The translations under genes were made by a program, and so were the position numbers. A stretch of 64,000 nucleotides of DNA from Acidimicrobiaceae bacterium (GTDB taxonomy: Bacteria > Actinomycetota > Acidimicrobiia > Acidimicrobiales > Aldehydirespiratoraceae), in assembly GCA_009837445.1 (NCBI GenBank), contig VXTM01000034.1:1-64000 (forward strand), given 5' to 3'. This document shows positions 39,346 through 51,289 of this stretch, piece by piece; the stretch's first letter is position 1; every line of letters begins with the position of its first letter. Below the pieces are notes generated by a model. The model searched no databases and was not told the DNA's origin. It saw nothing but the letters and a program-made list of their open reading frames with translations.

Positions 39346-39361
39346 TCGGCGTATTCGTTCG

Positions 39362-40219
39362 TCAACTCGCCGCGCCGGCTGCTGGGATCACGCCGTAGGT
39401 CACCCCGAGGCGGCTCAGCCAACGCCGGTAGACGATGGCCGAGCGGTCGGCCCGGATCGGCGTCTCCGCTCGGGGATCCAGTGGCAGGAGCTTGGGGTGC
39501 TGGTTCTCGAGGATCGGCTTGTCCTGGCCGATCACGCCCTGCTGGAACCGCCGGATCTCGGCGTCGGTGCTCACGTCGTCGAGCACGCTGACGAACAGGT
39601 GAGCCCGGATCCGGGTCTCGGTGAGGGGATGGATGAAGATGCCGATGGCGTCCATCCTGTCGACGTCGCTCGGTGACGACTTGTAGAGCATGGCGCAGTA
39701 GGGGTGCGGCACCCGGTAGACGTAGGAGGCCAGCACTGCCTGCGAGGAGGCCGCGGCGGCACGGGGCTGGTAGAAGAGGCAGTCGAAGGCCCAGAGTTCG
39801 CCGTCGCGCTCCTCAACCCGGTACTCGGCCACCTCGGTGCGGGGCTCCTCGCCGAGCACGCCCCCATGCACGTACGGGAAGTGAGCCATGTCCAGGAAGT
39901 TCTCCACCGCCCGCGGGGCCGACACCTCGATTCCCACAGTGACGGCGTTGAGGGTTCTCCGGTCGTCCTCGTGGGCTTCACCAACGTCGAACACGCCTCC
40001 GGTGGGCTCTCCCAGGGTGGTCCACAGGTACCCGTAGTCGGTGCGGACCTCCAGCTCCCGATCCGATCCGGTCACGGCTCGTGCCCTGCCGCCGGTATCG
40101 ATCCAGCAGCGCAGCCGCTCGCCGAGCAGCAGGGTCCGGAGCTCGCCGCGGCGGATCTCGTCCAGATCCGCCACCGCGTGCCACTCGTTGAGGATCACCG
40201 GGTCTGCACAGACCTGCAT
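39362..40219 (-). CDS. Ring-hydroxylating oxygenase alpha-subunit homologue lacking the Rieske cluster site
   Basis: 285 residues. The catalytic non-haem iron domain is intact: ENFLDMAHFPYVHGG gives Asp110, His113 and His118. The N-terminus (NEWHAVADLDEIRRGELRTL, residues 11-30) still resembles the start of a Rieske domain, and the C-terminal end (YRRWLSRLGVTYG) parallels the full-length paralogue at 41273, but the CxH...CxxH block is missing. The protein is about 45 residues shorter, so the loss is internal. Electrons would have to come from another Rieske protein; NdmC of caffeine demethylation is a known precedent. The ATG follows GGAGAGGA and begins 1 base after the adenine deaminase stop. 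Confidence 0.8.
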   Translation of the reverse strand: MQVCADPVILNEWHAVADLDEIRRGELRTLLLGERLRCWIDTGGRARAVTGSDRELEVRTDYGYLWTTLGEPTGGVFDVGEAHEDDRRTLNAVTVGIEVSAPRAVENFLDMAHFPYVHGGVLGEEPRTEVAEYRVEERDGELWAFDCLFYQPRAAAASSQAVLASYVYRVPHPYCAMLYKSSPSDVDRMDAIGIFIHPLTETRIRAHLFVSVLDDVSTDAEIRRFQQGVIGQDKPILENQHPKLLPLDPRAETPIRADRSAIVYRRWLSRLGVTYGVIPAAGAAS

Positions 40220-40220
40220 C

Positions 40221-41276
40221 TCAGTCCTCTCCATCGCCATCGCCGAAAGCATCCAGGTCGGCCAGCCAGGCCCGTTTCTGGTCGGCGGGAGCGAAGCTGG
40301 CCTCGAGGCTGTTGCGGGCGCACTGGGCCAGTTCGCCGCGGGTCAAGCCGAGGGCCGCGGCCGAAGCCAGGTAGTTGTCGGCGACGTAACCCCCGAAGTA
40401 GGCGGGGTCGTCGGAGTTGATGGTGACCTTCAGTCCGGCGTCGAGCAGGCGCTTGAGGTTGTGGTCGGCCAGGTCGTCCACCACGCACAACGCCAGGTTC
40501 GACAGCGGGCACACGGTCAGTGGCGTCTGAGCCTCCACCAGCCGCGCCACCAGCGCCGGGTCCTCCTCGCAGCGCACGCCGTGGTCGATGCGCTCAGCGC
40601 CGAGAGCGTCGAGAGCGCCGGTGATGTAGGAGGGAGGTCCCTCCTCGCCGGCATGGGCCACCGGGCGCAGCCCGGCGGCGCGGGCCATGGCGTAGGCCTC
40701 CACGAACTCCTCGGGCGGGTGGTCCACCTCCGAGCTGTCCAAGCCGACGCCGACGATGCGGTCGAGCCAGCCCTCGGCGGCCCGGAACGTGTCGCAGGCT
40801 GCCTCGCCGGGAAGGTGCCGCAGGAAGCACATGATCAGGTCGGACGAGATCCCGGTGGCGGCTTCGGCGTCGGCCATGGCCGAGGTGAAGCCCTCCATGA
40901 ACACGTCGAAGCCGACACCGCGCTCGGTGTGGGTCTGCGGATCGAAGAACATCTCCGCCCGCCTGACCCCGTCGGCGTGGGCTCGCTGCAGGTAGGCGGC
41001 CATCAGGTCATAGAAGTCCTGGGTGGTCTGCAGCACCGCCGCGCCCTGGTAGTAGATGTCCAGGAACGACTGGAGGTCGGTGAAGGAGTAGGCGGCTCGC
41101 ACCGCGGCCTCGTTCTCGAAGGGGAGATCGACTCGGTTGCGGCCGGCCAGCTCGAACAGCAACTCCGGCTCGAGGGTCCCCTCGATGTGAAGGTGCAGCT
41201 CTGCCTTGGGCAGCCCCCTCACAAAAGCAGCCAGAGCCGCGTCCACCGACGTCACGGGTATGGACGGAGCGGTCAC
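40221..41276 (-). CDS. Adenine deaminase (adenosine deaminase superfamily)
   Basis: 351 residues. Metal ligands lie in AELHLHIEG (His28, His30), a central HAGEEG, and NSDDPAYFGGY near the C-terminus. The last motif, with PLSNLALCVVDDLADHNLKRLLDAG (in sections) and FFDPQTHTERGV, is the pattern of adenine (AAH1-type) rather than adenosine deaminases. It would convert adenine to hypoxanthine and ammonia. The GTG at 41276 overlaps the stop of the Rieske oxygenase gene by 4 bases, and the next gene starts 1 base after its stop, so it is translated together with two oxygenases. This makes purine catabolism the leading idea for the operon. Confidence 0.85.
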   Translation of the reverse strand: MTAPSIPVTSVDAALAAFVRGLPKAELHLHIEGTLEPELLFELAGRNRVDLPFENEAAVRAAYSFTDLQSFLDIYYQGAAVLQTTQDFYDLMAAYLQRAHADGVRRAEMFFDPQTHTERGVGFDVFMEGFTSAMADAEAATGISSDLIMCFLRHLPGEAACDTFRAAEGWLDRIVGVGLDSSEVDHPPEEFVEAYAMARAAGLRPVAHAGEEGPPSYITGALDALGAERIDHGVRCEEDPALVARLVEAQTPLTVCPLSNLALCVVDDLADHNLKRLLDAGLKVTINSDDPAYFGGYVADNYLASAAALGLTRGELAQCARNSLEASFAPADQKRAWLADLDAFGDGDGED

Positions 41277-42265
41277 TCGCTCATGGTGCCATACCGGATG
41301 CCTCGGGCGCGCAGCCATCTGCGATAGGCGAGGCTGCCCGCGTCGGCCGCCTGGTGCGACTCCATCCTCGGGTCGGTCGGCAGCTGCCGGGGCCGCTGGG
41401 ACTCCACGACATCGATGTCCTGGGAGAAGATCAGCTCGTTGAAGGCCTGCTGGGCGTCAAAGTCGACGCCGGCGTCGTCCACGACAGTCGAGCGCCACAC
41501 GACACAGGCGGTCTCGGTGACAGGGCTGGCCACGATCAGGATGGTGAAGCCCCCGACCCCGTCGCCGTCGCCGCCGGTAGGCACCTTGGTGAGGGTGGCC
41601 GCATACGGATGCGACACCGAGTACTGGTAGCGGACCGGCCCACCGCCGGACGCGGCCGGTCCTGGATCGGGCTGCCAGAACACGCAGTCGGTCAACCGCA
41701 GCTCCTCGTCATCGGCCTCGACCCCGTAGCCGACCACCTCGGTGTAGGGCTCCTGGCCCAGGTACCCCTCGTGCACGAACGGGAAGTGGGCCAGATCCAA
41801 GAAGTTCTCGATGACGCGGGGCCCCGACGACTCGACCCTCACCGGGTCGAGCCACACGGTCCGCTCCGGGTGGGCGGCATGGTCCGGCGCCAAGGGCAGG
41901 TTCCGGGGCCGATCCCCCGCGCAGACCCACCAAAACCCGTACTGGGCCCGGACCGCAGCCGTGCGCAGACGGATGCCGGCGGGTCGGCGGTCCGGGTGGG
42001 CCGGCTGGTGGATGCAGTGGCCGTCGATGTCGAACTGCCAGCCGTGATAGCCGCATCGCAGCCGCTCCCCGTCGAAGTCGCCGAGCGTGATCCGGGCGCC
42101 CCGGTGGGGGCAGGTGTCCACGAACACCTCGACCCGGCCGGAGTTGTCGCAGGCCAGCACCCACCGCTCGTCGAGCAGTTCGAACCGGAGCCACTGTCCC
42201 GCCGCGACATCGCTGGCGCGGGCCACCGGGAACCACTCGTCGTGTATGGGATCGGTCCCGGACAT
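41273..42265 (-). CDS. Rieske non-haem iron oxygenase, alpha subunit
   Basis: 330 residues. The Rieske cluster site is complete: CPHRGA and CGYHGW give Cys52, His54, Cys71 and His74. The catalytic domain shows ENFLDLAHFPFVHEG with Asp157, His160 and His165. It is a monooxygenase or N/O-demethylase type (no beta subunit nearby). The ATG at 42265 has AAGGAG at close spacing; the tandem GTGs at 42286 and 42283 overlap the previous gene and are less likely. No reductase gene is seen in the window. Upstream is a TrzA-type deaminase (14 bases), downstream the adenine deaminase. Confidence 0.88.
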   Translation of the reverse strand: MSGTDPIHDEWFPVARASDVAAGQWLRFELLDERWVLACDNSGRVEVFVDTCPHRGARITLGDFDGERLRCGYHGWQFDIDGHCIHQPAHPDRRPAGIRLRTAAVRAQYGFWWVCAGDRPRNLPLAPDHAAHPERTVWLDPVRVESSGPRVIENFLDLAHFPFVHEGYLGQEPYTEVVGYGVEADDEELRLTDCVFWQPDPGPAASGGGPVRYQYSVSHPYAATLTKVPTGGDGDGVGGFTILIVASPVTETACVVWRSTVVDDAGVDFDAQQAFNELIFSQDIDVVESQRPRQLPTDPRMESHQAADAGSLAYRRWLRARGIRYGTMSE

Positions 42266-42279
42266 CGCTCCTTGTGAAC

Positions 42280-43638
42280 TCACCACAGGGGGACGGCGGG
42301 GTTGCCCTTTAGAGCCTCCCGGCGCTCGAACAGCTCCTCGGCCGCGGCCTGGGCGTCGGCGGCCACCGCAGCCACGTCGACGGAGGTCACCTGCCCGTCC
42401 TGCACCAGCCGACGCCCTTGAACCCAGACGTCGCTCACGTCCCGGGCGCTGGCGGTGAACACCAGGTGGGCGGGGGCGTTGAAGTGCCTACCGTGCATCA
42501 CCGGCACGAAGTGCAGCCCGCCGATGTCCACCATGGCGATGTCGGCGTCCTTACCGACCTCGAGGGTTCCCGTCGTGTCGTCGAGACCAAGCGCGGCCGC
42601 GCCGGCGCGGGTGGCCATTTCGAGAATGTCCCAAGGGTCGGCCGCGGTCGGGTCGAGGGTGCTGACCTTGGCCAGGAGCGAGGCGAACTTCATCTCGCCC
42701 AGCATGTCGAGATTGTTGTTCTCCTTCTCGCCGTCGGTGCCCAATCCGACGGTCATGCCCGAGGACCGGTAGTGGCCGATGCGGGCGGGTCCCGAGGCGA
42801 GCTTCATGTTCGAGCAGGGGCAGTGGGTGGCAGCCGTCCCGGTGCGGACCATCAGCTCGACTTCCCGGTCGTCGAGCCACACACAGTGGGCGACCACGGT
42901 GGTCTCTCCCAGGATGCCCCGGTTGTAGAACTCCTCGATGGGGCGCCGGCCGAACAGGCGCAGGCTCTCGGAGACCTCCCAGACCGACTCGGAGCTGTGG
43001 GTGTGGATGCCGGTGTCGAACTCGGCGGCGAGGGCGGCGGCGTCCCGGAACATCTCCGGCGAGCAGTACAGCATGTGCTCAAGGCCGACCCAGACCCTTA
43101 CCCGCCCGTCCGCCGCGGAGTGGTGGGTCTCGAGCAGGCGCCGGTTGGACTCCAGCGACTCGAAGTAGTCGTAGCGGTCGGCGGTGTAGGGGGCCAGGGT
43201 GGCCCGGATGCCGATGTCGGTGGCCGCTTCGGCCGATCCCTCCATGAACCGCCACATGTCGAGCACCGAGGTGGTGCCGCCCTGCAGGCACTCGGTGTAA
43301 GCCATGTAGGAGGCGGCCCTAGCGATCTCGGGGGTGAGGGCCCGGTGGGCGGGGTCGACGTAGTTCTCGAGCCAGTCGAACAGTGCCAGCGACTCGGCCG
43401 TTCCTCGCAGCAGCCCCGAGTGCAGGTGGGCGTTATGCATGCCCGGCATGACCACGTGGTTGGTGGCGTCCACCGCCGGCGCGGCTGCGGCCGCCGGGTG
43501 GGCCGCGACTTCGTCGATGGAGCCGACGGCGGCAATCGTGCCGTCCACCACCAGGACCGAGCCGGGGTCGTGGCTGATCCTGCGGCCCTCGAGCGGCAGC
43601 ACGATGCCGCCCCGGATCAGGAAGGTGGTGTCATTCAC
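42280..43638 (-). CDS. Amidohydrolase, MTA/SAH deaminase (TrzA) type
   Basis: 452 residues. Metal and catalytic landmarks are MHNAHLHSG, GIHTHSSES, VVAHCVWLDDRE, ATHCPCSNMKLASG and VGLGTDGEKENNNLDM, the set expected for 5-methylthioadenosine/S-adenosylhomocysteine deaminase and related aminohydrolases. It is therefore likely to deaminate an adenine-type or triazine-type ring. The start is GTG at 43638. It sits 40 bases after the CadI-like gene and 14 bases before the Rieske oxygenase, so it joins the purine-oriented operon. It is not closely similar to the amidohydrolase at 4305. Confidence 0.86.
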   Translation of the reverse strand: MNDTTFLIRGGIVLPLEGRRISHDPGSVLVVDGTIAAVGSIDEVAAHPAAAAAPAVDATNHVVMPGMHNAHLHSGLLRGTAESLALFDWLENYVDPAHRALTPEIARAASYMAYTECLQGGTTSVLDMWRFMEGSAEAATDIGIRATLAPYTADRYDYFESLESNRRLLETHHSAADGRVRVWVGLEHMLYCSPEMFRDAAALAAEFDTGIHTHSSESVWEVSESLRLFGRRPIEEFYNRGILGETTVVAHCVWLDDREVELMVRTGTAATHCPCSNMKLASGPARIGHYRSSGMTVGLGTDGEKENNNLDMLGEMKFASLLAKVSTLDPTAADPWDILEMATRAGAAALGLDDTTGTLEVGKDADIAMVDIGGLHFVPVMHGRHFNAPAHLVFTASARDVSDVWVQGRRLVQDGQVTSVDVAAVAADAQAAAEELFERREALKGNPAVPLW

Positions 43639-43678
43639 GCGCCCGGCAGCTTATGACGGGCATCGCTGGCCGGCCCGG

Positions 43679-44104
43679 TCAGTGTGAGGCGACCACTACG
43701 TTCTCGAGGACCTCGCTGTCGCCGGTGCGCACGTACCACTCCCAGCGGCTGCCGTCGGGATCGGTCACCCAGGTCTCGGACTTCTCCGAGTAGCAGCACA
43801 TGACGTTGTCCACACCGCTGGTATCGAGGCCCTCCCCGCTGAGGCGCCGCTCGGCTTCGACCACCTGCTCGACGGTCTCGGTCTCGACTCCCAGGTGGTT
43901 GATGGTCCCGCCGGCGCCGCAACAGCCGGCAGCGTCGGCAGCACCTGCAGCAGTCTCGAAGAGGACCAGCTTCAGGGGCGGCTCCTCGATGGCGAAGTTG
44001 GCGTAGCCCGGCCTGCGCCGGGCCGGCTCTGCATCGAACATGCGCGAGTAGAAGTCCACCGCCGCGTCCAGGTCCGACACGTTCAAAGCTAGTTGCAGTC
44101 GCAT
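43679..44104 (-). CDS. CadI/ArsI-family VOC metalloprotein
   Basis: 141 residues, VOC (glyoxalase) fold. From memory it tracks mycobacterial CadI closely: LQLALNVSDLDAAVDFYSRMF (in part), RRPGYANFAIEEPPLKLVL (in part), NHLGVE, then MCCYSEKSETWVTDPDG with the vicinal Cys103-Cys104. ArsI members use this Cys pair to bind trivalent organoarsenicals and cleave the C-As bond; CadI is cadmium-induced. An insertion at 52-66 carries a second pair (Cys61-Cys62). The ATG at 44104 has a weak GAGAGA site; the longer frame is rejected. It is the first gene before the deaminase/oxygenase set. Confidence 0.8.
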   Translation of the reverse strand: MRLQLALNVSDLDAAVDFYSRMFDAEPARRRPGYANFAIEEPPLKLVLFETAAGAADAAGCCGAGGTINHLGVETETVEQVVEAERRLSGEGLDTSGVDNVMCCYSEKSETWVTDPDGSRWEWYVRTGDSEVLENVVVASH

Positions 44105-47486: not shown

Positions 47487-47560
47487 CGGGACGTGGCGCA
47501 GCCAGGTAGCGCACCTGCTTTGGGAGCAGGGGGTCGCCGGTTCAAATCCGGCCGTCCCGA
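47487..47560 (+). tRNA. tRNA-Pro (anticodon TGG)
   Basis: A complete 74-base cloverleaf. The acceptor arms CGGGACG and CGTCCCG pair fully, with A as discriminator. The anticodon stem CCTGC/GCAGG encloses the loop TTTGGGA, giving anticodon TGG. The T arm contains GGTTCAAATCC. CCA is not encoded; the gene is followed by CCCCC. The Mo-hydroxylase gene starts 13 bases downstream, so the two may be co-transcribed with tRNA processing in between. Confidence 0.95.
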
Positions 47561-47573
47561 CCCCCACAATCTC

Positions 47574-49052
47574 ATGAGCCAACTTCACGAAGCCCAGCGA
47601 CGGGCCGATCCGATCAGACGATATGTAGCGCCCGAGTCGTTGGAAGACGCTCTGGAGGTGCTGGCCGCGCACGGACCGTCGGCCCGGGTGGTCGCGGGCG
47701 GCACCGATCTGCTGCTGGAGCTCAGCCGCGGGGCCCGTACCGGCATCGACACGCTCGTGGACTTGAGCGTCCTCGACGGTCTGGACACCATCGTCGAGCG
47801 CGACGGGCGGATCGAGCTGGGACCGCTGGTCACCCACGCCGACGTGGTCTCCTCCAAGAGGATGCTCACGGCGGGATTGCCTCTCGCGCAGGCCTGCCTG
47901 GAGGTCGGGGGGCCGCAGCTCCGCAACCGGGCCACCGTCGTCGGCAACATCGTGACCGCCAGCCCCGCCAACGACACCATCTCGGCGCTGTACGCGCTGG
48001 GAGCCGACGTGACCCTGGCGTCGGCCTCCGGCGGCGAGCGGACTCTCCAGATCGAGGACTTCTTCACCGGCTTCCGCACCACTGCGCTGGAGCACGACGA
48101 GCTGGTGACCAAGGTCTCCTTCGATGCTCTGGGCGGCACCCGCCGCGGCATCTTCGTCAAGCTCGGACTGCGCAAGGCGCAAGCGATCTCAGTGGTCCAC
48201 GCGGCTGCGGTGGTCACCGACGCCGACGACGGCACGGTGGCCGACCTAGTGGTGGCGCTGGGCAGCGTCGGCCCCACCATCGAGTTGGTTCCCGACGCCG
48301 GCTCCGTCGCCGCTGGACGGCCGCTGGCGCAGGCCGCCTCCGACGTCGCGGCCGCGGCCCGGGCCGCGGCCGCACCCATAGACGACCTGCGCTCCACCGC
48401 GGAGTACCGCAGCCACACCACCGAGGTGGTGGTCAAGCGGGCCCTGCTGTCACTGGCCGCCCGGACCGAGGCCGACACGTGGCCCGAGCGCCCGCCACGG
48501 CTCATGGCCGCCAACGGCGCCGCGGACGCCTCCGGGGCGGGCCGGATGCCTCAGCGTGAGATAACCGACGGCAGCACTATCAACGCCACCGTCAACGGGA
48601 AGGAGCGTCGCGCTTCCAATTCGGCCCGTCGCACCCTGCTCGACTGGCTGCGCTTCGACCTGGGCCTGACCGGAACGAAGGAAGGCTGCGCCGAGGGCGA
48701 ATGCGGCGCCTGCACCGTGCACCTTGATGGTCAGGCCGTGCTCGCCTGCCTGGTGCCCGCGGCCCGCGCCGACGGAGCGGCCATCACCACCGTGGAGGGC
48801 GTCGCCCCGCCTGACGGGGGCCTGCACCCGGTTCAGCAGGCCCTGGCCGACTGCGAGGGCGTCCAGTGCGGGTTCTGCACGCCGGGATTCGTGATGAGCT
48901 CGGTCATGCTTGCCTCGGAGGAGCCCAACCCGAGCCGAGCCCAGGTCGAGCACGGTCTGGCCGGCAACCTGTGCCGCTGCACCGGCTACTACTCGATCAT
49001 CGAAGCCCTAATGGGTTCAGGGGTTCCGGGCGCGGCGGAGCCGGTGTCATGA
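47574..49052 (+). CDS. Fused FAD-binding and [2Fe-2S] subunit of a molybdenum hydroxylase
   Basis: 492 residues. The N-terminal half is a CoxM/XdhB-type FAD domain (RVVAGGTDLLLEL, GPQLRNRATVVGNIVTASPAND in part), and the C-terminal half a CoxS-type domain with two [2Fe-2S] sites: CAEGECGACTVHLDG...C and CGFCTPGF...CRCTGYY. In bacterial XdhA the iron-sulfur domain comes first, so this FAD-then-FeS order is a separate fusion of medium and small subunits. The ATG at 47574 is preferred; the frame extends back into the tRNA gene but that part cannot be coding. Its stop overlaps the large-subunit start by 4 bases. Confidence 0.9.
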   Translation: MSQLHEAQRRADPIRRYVAPESLEDALEVLAAHGPSARVVAGGTDLLLELSRGARTGIDTLVDLSVLDGLDTIVERDGRIELGPLVTHADVVSSKRMLTAGLPLAQACLEVGGPQLRNRATVVGNIVTASPANDTISALYALGADVTLASASGGERTLQIEDFFTGFRTTALEHDELVTKVSFDALGGTRRGIFVKLGLRKAQAISVVHAAAVVTDADDGTVADLVVALGSVGPTIELVPDAGSVAAGRPLAQAASDVAAAARAAAAPIDDLRSTAEYRSHTTEVVVKRALLSLAARTEADTWPERPPRLMAANGAADASGAGRMPQREITDGSTINATVNGKERRASNSARRTLLDWLRFDLGLTGTKEGCAEGECGACTVHLDGQAVLACLVPAARADGAAITTVEGVAPPDGGLHPVQQALADCEGVQCGFCTPGFVMSSVMLASEEPNPSRAQVEHGLAGNLCRCTGYYSIIEALMGSGVPGAAEPVS

Positions 49053-51289
49053 GCGTCGGCCGGTCGGCGGCCCGGATCGACGCGCCCGCGAAGCTCACCG
49101 GGCAAGCCTCCTACGGAAGCGACCGCATCGGTGCGGACTCCTTGTGGGCCATGGTCGTGTTCACCGACCAGCCCCACGCCCGGCTAGTCGAGCTCGACTT
49201 CTCCGCGGCCGAGGCCGTTGAAGGAGTGGTGGCCGTCTTCGGCTCAAGCGACGTGCCCGTGAACGAGTACGGCCTCACGATGACCGACCATCCCGTCTTC
49301 GTGGGTCTCGAGCACACCGGTCGAAGTGCCGTCGCCAGCGACGTGTCTCGCTGGGAGGCCGACCGGCTGGCGCTGGTGGTGGCCGAGTCGCCCGAAGCGG
49401 CCCGGGCCGGCGCGGCCGCGATCAAGTCGCGGTGGGAGCCGCTGCCGGTGCTGGCCGACATTGACGAGTCGCTGGGCTCGAACACGCTGCTTCATCCCGA
49501 GAACGGGAAGCCCTCCAACGTCTACCACTCGCTGCGTATCCGCAAGGGCGACATGGCTCAGGGCTGGGCCGACGCCGATGTGGTGGTGGAGTCCACTTAC
49601 GAGTTCCCCTACCAGGAGCACGCCTATCTCCAGCCCGAGGCCGGGCTGGCCTACATCGACGACGAGGGCCGGGTGACGGTCGAGGTTGCCGGCCAGTGGA
49701 CTCACGAGGACCGGGAGCAGATCGCCCACGCCCTGGACCTTCCCGTCGAGCAGGTGCGAGTGATCTACCCGGCCATCGGCGGGGCCTTCGGCGGCCGGGA
49801 GGACATCTCCATACAGATCGTGCTGGCCGTCGCCGCCATGAGACTCCACGAGCGGGGAATCGAACGGCCGGTGGGCACGGTGTGGTCCCGTGAGGAGTCG
49901 ATCGTCGGGCACTGCAAGCGCCACCGGGGCCGCATCGTCACCCGTTGGGGGGCCATGCGCGACGGCCGCATCACCGCGGTCAAGAGCACCGCCTGGCTCG
50001 ACGCGGGCGCCTACAACTTCACATCCAACAAGGTGCTGGGCAACTGCCACATGCACCAGTCGGGTCCCTACGTGGTGCCCAACGCCGAGATCGACAGCTA
50101 CGCGGTCTACACCAACGCGACACCGGCCGGGGCCTTCCGGGGCTTCGGCGGGCCCCAGGGTGCGTTCGCGGCCGAGTGCCAGATGAACAAGCTGGCTGAG
50201 GCGCTGGGAATGGACCCGGTGGAGTTGCGCCGAATCAACACGCTGCAAGAGGGCAGCATCGGCGTCACCCAGACACCGATGCCCGAGGGTGTGACGATGC
50301 CCGAGGTGATCGACCGCTGCGCCGACGCGGCGGAGTCGACCGCGGATGAGGTGGCACCGGATTTCAGCCCGTTCCCGTCGCTGCCGGCCGAGCCGTCGGC
50401 GCTGCGCCGGGGCCAGGGCTTCGCGTGCTCGTTCAAGAACGTCGGCTTCTCGTTCGGCTTCCCCGAGCGCTGCGAGGCCGAGATCGTGCTGCACGGCGGC
50501 GAGGACTCCGACGAGCCGGAACGGGCAGAGCTGTTCCACGCCGGTGCCGATGTGGGCCAGGGCTCTCATACTGCGCTGGTGCAGATGGCCTCAGAGGCGA
50601 CCGGCCTGCCCGCGGACCGCATCGAGCGCCGATTCTCCGACACGGCCACCTCCGGCGACTCGGGTTCGGCCTCCGCGTCCCGGCTCACCTGGATGTCGGG
50701 CAACGCGATCCTCGGCGCGGCCGAGGAGGCCGAGAAGGCCTGGCGTGACGGCCAGCGCCCCGCGGTGGGCCGGTTCCGCTACGTGCCGCCGCCCACCGAG
50801 ATGCTCGACGCCGCCGACGGCAGCGGCTCGCCGAACTTCACGTACGGCTACGTGGCCCAGCACGTAGACCTCACCGTCGATACCGACACCGGCCACATCC
50901 GGGTGAACCGGGTGGTCAGCGCCCACGATGTCGGCAAGGCGATCAACCCCAAGCTGGTGGTGGGCCAGATCGAGGGCGCGGTGATCCAGGCCCACGGCTA
51001 CGCGGTCAGCGAGAACCTCCGCTCCGACGGGGGCCGCTTGCAGAACATGCGGCTGAGCACGTACCTGATGCCCGGCATCGGCGACATACCGACCCAGGTC
51101 GACAGCGTGGTGCTGGAGTTGGCCGACCCCCACGGCCCCTGGGGCGCCCGCGGCATGGCCGAGATGGGCATGATCCCCTACGCCCCCGCGATGGTGGCCG
51201 CCCTCCACGACGCCACCGGCGTCTGGTTCGACAGCTTCCCGCTGACCCCCGACCGGGTCCTGGCCGGCCTCAACAGCACCGTCAGTTAG
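49049..51289 (+). CDS. Molybdopterin-binding subunit of a xanthine-dehydrogenase-family hydroxylase
   Basis: 746 residues. Mo-cofactor contacts are GGAFGGREDI, GAFRGFGGPQGAF, DVGQGSHT and the C-terminal GARGMAEMGM, whose Glu fits the catalytic base. The AYRCSFR loop of CO dehydrogenase is absent, so it is a hydroxylase of the xanthine/nicotinate/aldehyde type. It inserts water-derived oxygen next to a ring nitrogen or oxidises an aldehyde. A purine substrate would connect with the adenine deaminase operon at 40 kb, and a pyridine substrate with the enamidase-like gene at 22 kb; sequence does not decide. No XdhC-type maturation gene is visible. Confidence 0.9.
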   Translation: MSVGRSAARIDAPAKLTGQASYGSDRIGADSLWAMVVFTDQPHARLVELDFSAAEAVEGVVAVFGSSDVPVNEYGLTMTDHPVFVGLEHTGRSAVASDVSRWEADRLALVVAESPEAARAGAAAIKSRWEPLPVLADIDESLGSNTLLHPENGKPSNVYHSLRIRKGDMAQGWADADVVVESTYEFPYQEHAYLQPEAGLAYIDDEGRVTVEVAGQWTHEDREQIAHALDLPVEQVRVIYPAIGGAFGGREDISIQIVLAVAAMRLHERGIERPVGTVWSREESIVGHCKRHRGRIVTRWGAMRDGRITAVKSTAWLDAGAYNFTSNKVLGNCHMHQSGPYVVPNAEIDSYAVYTNATPAGAFRGFGGPQGAFAAECQMNKLAEALGMDPVELRRINTLQEGSIGVTQTPMPEGVTMPEVIDRCADAAESTADEVAPDFSPFPSLPAEPSALRRGQGFACSFKNVGFSFGFPERCEAEIVLHGGEDSDEPERAELFHAGADVGQGSHTALVQMASEATGLPADRIERRFSDTATSGDSGSASASRLTWMSGNAILGAAEEAEKAWRDGQRPAVGRFRYVPPPTEMLDAADGSGSPNFTYGYVAQHVDLTVDTDTGHIRVNRVVSAHDVGKAINPKLVVGQIEGAVIQAHGYAVSENLRSDGGRLQNMRLSTYLMPGIGDIPTQVDSVVLELADPHGPWGARGMAEMGMIPYAPAMVAALHDATGVWFDSFPLTPDRVLAGLNSTVS

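Follow-up and report, generated by a model that had tools for sequence, protein, structure and literature searches.

In a 64,000-nucleotide stretch of DNA from an uncultured Acidimicrobiaceae bacterium (assembly GCA_009837445.1, contig VXTM01000034.1, positions 1 to 64,000; the window), the gene P0001 encodes an oxygenase of the Rieske type that lacks the Rieske block itself. In our assessment, P0001 is probably the catalytic, iron-carrying part of an NdmCDE-like Rieske oxygenase that is split between proteins, and it receives electrons in trans from an NdmD-like fusion protein and probably N-demethylates purine-type molecules. The analysis shows the anatomy, family, linkage, co-occurrence, phylogeny and predicted folds of the proteins, and from these we infer complex formation, the electron path and the substrate.

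Anatomy and family of the Rieske-less protein

P0001, 39362..40219, minus strand: Rieske-less oxygenase of the NdmC-like family; alternative in-frame ATG at 40252

Pfam assigns VanA_C alone to P0001, whereas the complete neighbouring oxygenase P0003 matches both Rieske and VanA_C, in agreement with an initial annotation of the window that had described P0001 as lacking the cluster block. The same annotation had reported Asp110, His113 and His118 as kept. All three are present (D121, H124 and H129 in the longer reading used below), but Asp110 is not an iron ligand: we take it to be the bridging aspartate, a role carried over from naphthalene dioxygenase. The carboxylate ligand of the iron is D244, which is present. 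An intact His/His/Asp iron site (H124, H129 and D244) and the lack of a Rieske motif place P0001 in the Rieske-less, NdmC-like family. Among 130 distinct full-length members of this family (152 rows minus 6 short rows and duplicates), none has the Rieske motif, and D121, H124, H129 and D244 are all found in 129, the exception being L171 (H124R); the pattern thus goes beyond chance. A cysteine in the N-terminal region, residue 15 of P0001, is retained in 112 of the 130 despite the loss of the cluster.

In a tree of catalytic domains (75 rows), the family forms a single clade of 33 rows (support 100/99). P0001 falls in one clade with the NdmC-type proteins of caffeine-type clusters, for which Klebsiella and Komagataeibacter homologues stand in for NdmC of CBB5. 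P0003 and its orthologues form the sister of the Rieske-less clade (joint support 100/98), and NdmA/B-like and HpxD proteins are placed elsewhere; on this comparison of sequences, P0003 is the closest complete relative of the family among those sampled. Note that the trees used 33-34 chosen rows of the 130, and that the 75-row tree omitted 21 named rows (two fusions, near-duplicates, and long or partial rows) and 3 short-Rieske rows.

The NdmD-like fusion as probable electron donor

The window genome (G000) contains four Rieske-less genes: one in the window (contig C46) and one each on C44, C21 and C51, whose products are 56, 53 and 51% identical to P0001, respectively. At C21 and C51, the gene that follows encodes a fusion (600 or 580 residues) of a Rieske domain with a reductase containing a plant-type [2Fe-2S] domain. 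Rieske and Fer2 score above the cut-off in these two fusions and in that of L106, a relative in which the flavin/NAD part was recognized by a PDB match; with Rieske, flavin/NAD and plant-type [2Fe-2S] parts in one chain, the C21 and C51 proteins are classed as NdmD-like. The first ~250 residues of the fusion correspond to a complete oxygenase subunit whose iron site is dead, so that the fusion could replace a neighbour in the trimer ring. As a single sequence, this dead domain from a Klebsiella NdmD-like protein does not match the Rieske-less proteins directly (5%), although it does match the profile of the fusions (99%). For four short Rieske proteins, the tails likewise give no direct match (4%) and a match to that profile (96%). 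One GST gene is located at C21 and another lies terminally on C44; the latter contig is 4 kb long and, judging from a comparison with the congener G003, probably abuts C51.

The presence of the fusion closely tracks that of the Rieske-less gene. Among 61 related genomes, 18 contain a Rieske-less gene and 17 a fusion; both occur in 17, and the fusion alone in none. Within the genus, 13 of 16 genomes contain an orthologue of P0001, with 79-93% identity to the copy in the window, and 12 of these 13 also contain the fusion. In G001 and G013, the orthologue is followed by the fusion and, further on, by GST, and the same order is seen in another genus (G018), beginning with a homologue 63% identical to P0001. 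In the gene tree, the window copy nests with the copies of G013 and G001; parsimony on the cis partner genes requires 3 changes, and loss and regain are not separable.

For a wider survey, one genome per species was scanned, which gave 380 confirmed relatives, and the 80 best loci were kept; because they are the best of 380, the locus counts describe closer relatives. Neighbourhoods were counted by tblastn using chosen seed proteins, so that a label denotes the best seed rather than a curated function. Of the 117 Rieske-less genes labelled in the 80 loci, 101 have the fusion as the next same-strand gene labelled as another kind, at a distance of at most 4 kb. The 16 exceptions consist of 8 window-type loci, two loci with the fusion upstream (L112 and L123), two on short contigs (L118 and L132), and four genes with no fusion in the stretch (L105 and three in L124). 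Of the 80 loci, 66 hold both fusion and GST; for the 70 loci outside the window type the figure is 64, and 55 of these 70 have some ABC transporter gene resembling the PnrA-linked set. When eight genomes were reached through chosen loci, seven matched the fusion, some in pieces or partly; one case is Microthrix (G351), with three Rieske-less genes at L124, no fusion nearby and two fusions elsewhere in the genome. In Rhizobium etli and Qingshengfaniella, a small protein of its own carries the Rieske part, and its gene adjoins those for the Rieske-less protein, GST, an amidohydrolase and a PnrA-type transporter.

Two or more Rieske-less genes occur in 34 of the 70 non-window-type loci, many of them from Rhizobiales (L088-L151); three of the tandem loci (L089, L093 and L146) were included in the tree, and in each of them the first and second copies belong to different subclades.

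The fusion acting in trans is the best-supported electron donor to P0001, since its presence tracks the Rieske-less genes (17 of 18 genomes) and no P0003 was found in 4 of the 13 congeners with P0001. Electrons would pass from NADH through the flavin and the plant-type [2Fe-2S] cluster to the Rieske cluster, all on the fusion, and would then cross between subunits, by way of the conserved D121, to reach the iron in P0001; a GST-like homologue of NdmE probably serves to keep the complex assembled. In the window species, the fusion and GST would be supplied from contigs C21 and C51/C44.

The locus, its likely substrate and alternative readings

The initial annotation's five minus-strand open reading frames are present, with gaps of 40, 14, -4 and 1 bases when the internal starts 44104, 43638, 42265, 41276 and 40219, at which start codons stand, are used. 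Besides P0001, the locus consists of:

P0002, 40221..41276, minus strand: adenosine-deaminase-fold protein, probably of the adenine-deaminase type (A_deaminase; NF006850, 507 against a cut-off of 419)
P0003, 41273..42265, minus strand: complete Rieske oxygenase (Pfam Rieske + VanA_C; tree support 100/98)
P0004, 42280..43638, minus strand: ATZ/TRZ-type amidohydrolase, probable deaminase (Amidohydro_1)
P0006, 43679..44104, minus strand: ArsI/CadI-type VOC protein (NF041414, 148.7 against a cut-off of 116)
Junction, 39346..39361, no strand: 16 bases separating P0001 from a convergent acyl-CoA dehydrogenase

Homologues of ndmD and ndmE are absent beside P0001 at the window locus and lie elsewhere in G000, for which reason we do not class the locus as an NdmCDE operon; in G001 and G013, NdmD-like and GST genes occupy the position equivalent to the junction.

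P0002 matches PDB entries 3ou8 (373 bits) and 3rys (346 bits), and all other chains score at most 130 (2ada/1a4l, ~92). The matched entries 3ou8 and 2ada/1a4l are all titled adenosine deaminase, as is NF006850; we take 3ou8 to be an adenine-acting deaminase of P. aeruginosa, and 2ada the mouse adenosine deaminase. P0002 adjoins P0001 in 11 of the 13 congeners, and genes of a PnrA-linked ABC transporter lie near P0001 in 9 of them, the window not included. On these sequence grounds, the likely job of the module is N-demethylation of a methylated purine, of the adenine type, followed by deamination. The best NCBIfam and PDB matches of P0004 are 5'-deoxyadenosine and MTA/SAH deaminases, the NCBIfam score being below the cut-off. 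In the stretches fetched, orthologues of the ATZ gene (P0004) and of the VOC gene (P0006) are each close to P0001 in only 3 of the 13 congeners, window included; neither is therefore core to the module, and the VOC protein was ruled out as a member of the pathway.

One congener genome (L079 and L112) and one alphaproteobacterium (L093) bear bin names of the jk18x style; other bins among the relatives are presumably of sponge origin. The jk18x style is used for Ircinia sponge genomes (PMC9531527), and marine sponges contain 1-methyladenine, 7-methyladenine and herbipoline (PMC5793054). At 47493-51289 of the window, behind two acyl-CoA-dehydrogenase-like genes, there are genes that resemble, as read from the translation alone, the FAD/[2Fe-2S] part and the molybdenum part of an enzyme of the xanthine-dehydrogenase type. 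A dense purine-type cluster at L040 (C51:1-16000) holds the fusion, a Rieske-less gene, ADA, adenine deaminase, a Rieske oxygenase, an ATZ-type amidohydrolase, two GcvT-like proteins and a PnrA-type ABC transporter.

Several observations weigh against our reading. G008 (95% complete) has P0001, yet neither the fusion nor P0003 was found in it. At five other loci (C44 of the window genome, G003, G001, Microthrix L124 and Komagataeibacter L153), a gene for a complete oxygenase lies next to a Rieske-less gene on the same strand, and in the window P0003 overlaps P0002 by 4 bases, so that P0003 may share the pathway of P0001. No PnrA-type transporter gene stands beside the operon in the window. Finally, P0001 belongs to the subclade opposite (sister) to that of NdmC, and its substrate may therefore differ.

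A rival reading, on balance unlikely, is that the module acts on a non-purine N-methylated or N-alkylated heterocycle or on a guanidinium compound. Apart from the position of P0001 outside the NdmC subclade, this is suggested by structure: the solved folds nearest to P0001 are SxtT/GxtA, ahead of NdmA. Against it, genes for adenine-type deaminase, PnrA-like transporter, guanine deaminase and adenine deaminase adjoin family members; for example, a guanine deaminase gene follows the Rieske-less gene in R. tumorigenes. Such labels are few, however, among the 70 non-window-type loci: ADA at 6 of them, ATZ and adenine deaminase at 2 each, and guanine deaminase at 1.

A second alternative concerns the donor: P0003, whose cluster residues lie at 52/54/71/74 as the initial annotation had numbered them, might form a mixed ring with P0001 and feed its iron from its own Rieske cluster, in the manner of NdmA/NdmB, which are listed as alpha3alpha'3 (PMC12445004). 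Nine of the 13 congeners with P0001 also have P0003 (8 of them at the same locus, G013 on a different contig), P0003 is the closest sampled complete relative noted above, and a second pair, RLess_C44 and RO_C44, is adjacent at 4 loci, including Microthrix. We nevertheless judge a mixed ring unlikely: no P0003 orthologue was found in G003, G004, G008 and G015 (drafts, 86-96% complete), the fusion tracks the Rieske-less genes far better, and Microthrix also carries its two fusions elsewhere. As no P0003 was found in 4 of the 13 congeners and the fusion is found in 12, P0003 as the main donor is not supported, and P0003 as the sole donor was set aside. The initial annotation's NdmC-like Rieske-less oxygenase, in a purine-type gene set and fed by another protein, is supported; feeding by the complete neighbour, one of the two sources that it had named, is not supported as the main route. 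With the fusion as donor to P0001, P0003 is probably, by analogy with the use of NdmD by NdmA/B, a separate complete oxygenase that uses the same reductase. The window genome itself gives 46 Rieske-domain matches above the cut-off in 3.9 Mb, which looks like a large oxygenase set (counts from G000 alone).

That P0003 hydroxylates the purine ring as HpxD does, rather than demethylating, seems improbable. HpxD is among the annotated plasmid relatives of P0003 (32.7% identity), but in the tree it lies in another part, with RO_C51 types; an HpxD-type function for P0003 is not supported by the tree, in which the two do not group. That P0001 is a relic decaying after loss of its partner genes, as their absence from the locus and the seemingly solitary copy in G008 might suggest, is hardly credible: the ratio of nonsynonymous to synonymous substitution rates across 78 pairs of the 13 congener copies has a median of 0.22 and a maximum of 0.28, the four key residues are intact in all 13 copies, the window's included, and neither the isolated decay nor the ligand loss that the initial annotation had named as refuting outcomes appeared.

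Origin and comparison with known systems

In a tree of Rieske domains, those of P0003, the C44 type and the NdmD type lie on one side (96/78), which is suggestive only, as there are few columns. A first quick tree put the dead domain of the fusion inside the Rieske-less clade; in a later tree (18 further rows omitted, 9 of 15 fusions used), it groups with the Rieske-less proteins and P0003 at 90/93 on long branches, again suggestive only. We propose, with as much doubt as belief, that duplication of a P0003-like ancestral purine oxygenase gave two copies, each of which retained one of the two metal sites. The first would have had its Rieske cluster loops cut and become NdmC-like; the second would have lost the iron helix, retained its dead catalytic domain for docking and been fused to a reductase, giving NdmD. 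The enzyme would then be a ring of complementary half-dead subunits, and P0003 the closest known complete relative of the ancestor.

If true, this would explain the construction and origin of NdmCDE, and the orphan rhizobial and marine homologues would become a testable demethylase family. The methylpurines of sponges make a recycling role for the module directly testable (PMC5793054), and the location of the iron and Rieske sites on two proteins would offer a natural handle for studying inter-subunit electron transfer. In the passages of open-licence papers searched, no account was met of a dead oxygenase domain in NdmD or of the Rieske-less family in Acidimicrobiia.

NdmCDE is the N7-demethylase of caffeine degradation in Pseudomonas putida CBB5, and according to a 2015 review no earlier report existed of a Rieske domain that is separated from the oxygenase and fused to the reductase (PMC4408171). 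The initial annotation knew of no described system with this gene set. This should be toned down, since the electron-transfer module is of the NdmCDE kind, whose homologues, of unassigned function and mostly from Sinorhizobium and Mesorhizobium, are already in print (PMC4408171). All three kinds of NdmCDE protein are present in the window genome: a Rieske-less oxygenase with an intact iron site, a Rieske-bearing NADH reductase and a GST-like third protein. However, the reductase and GST genes are not beside P0001, P0001 belongs to another subclade, and its gene stands with those for an adenine-type deaminase, an ATZ-type amidohydrolase and a complete oxygenase. P0003 resembles NdmA/NdmB, whose reductase is NdmD, in being a complete oxygenase of the VanA_C type for which the fusion could be a shared reductase, but it branches with the Rieske-less family, whereas the NdmA/B-like rows do not. 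HpxD, a Rieske-type xanthine hydroxylase, likewise belongs to a purine pathway and has a PDR/VanB reductase next door, but is a complete Rieske enzyme on a branch separate from P0003. The saxitoxin-pathway oxygenases SxtT/GxtA, nearest to P0001 among solved folds and the best PDB sequence match for P0001 and P0003 alike, are 25-26% identical to P0001, and are complete enzymes of another pathway.
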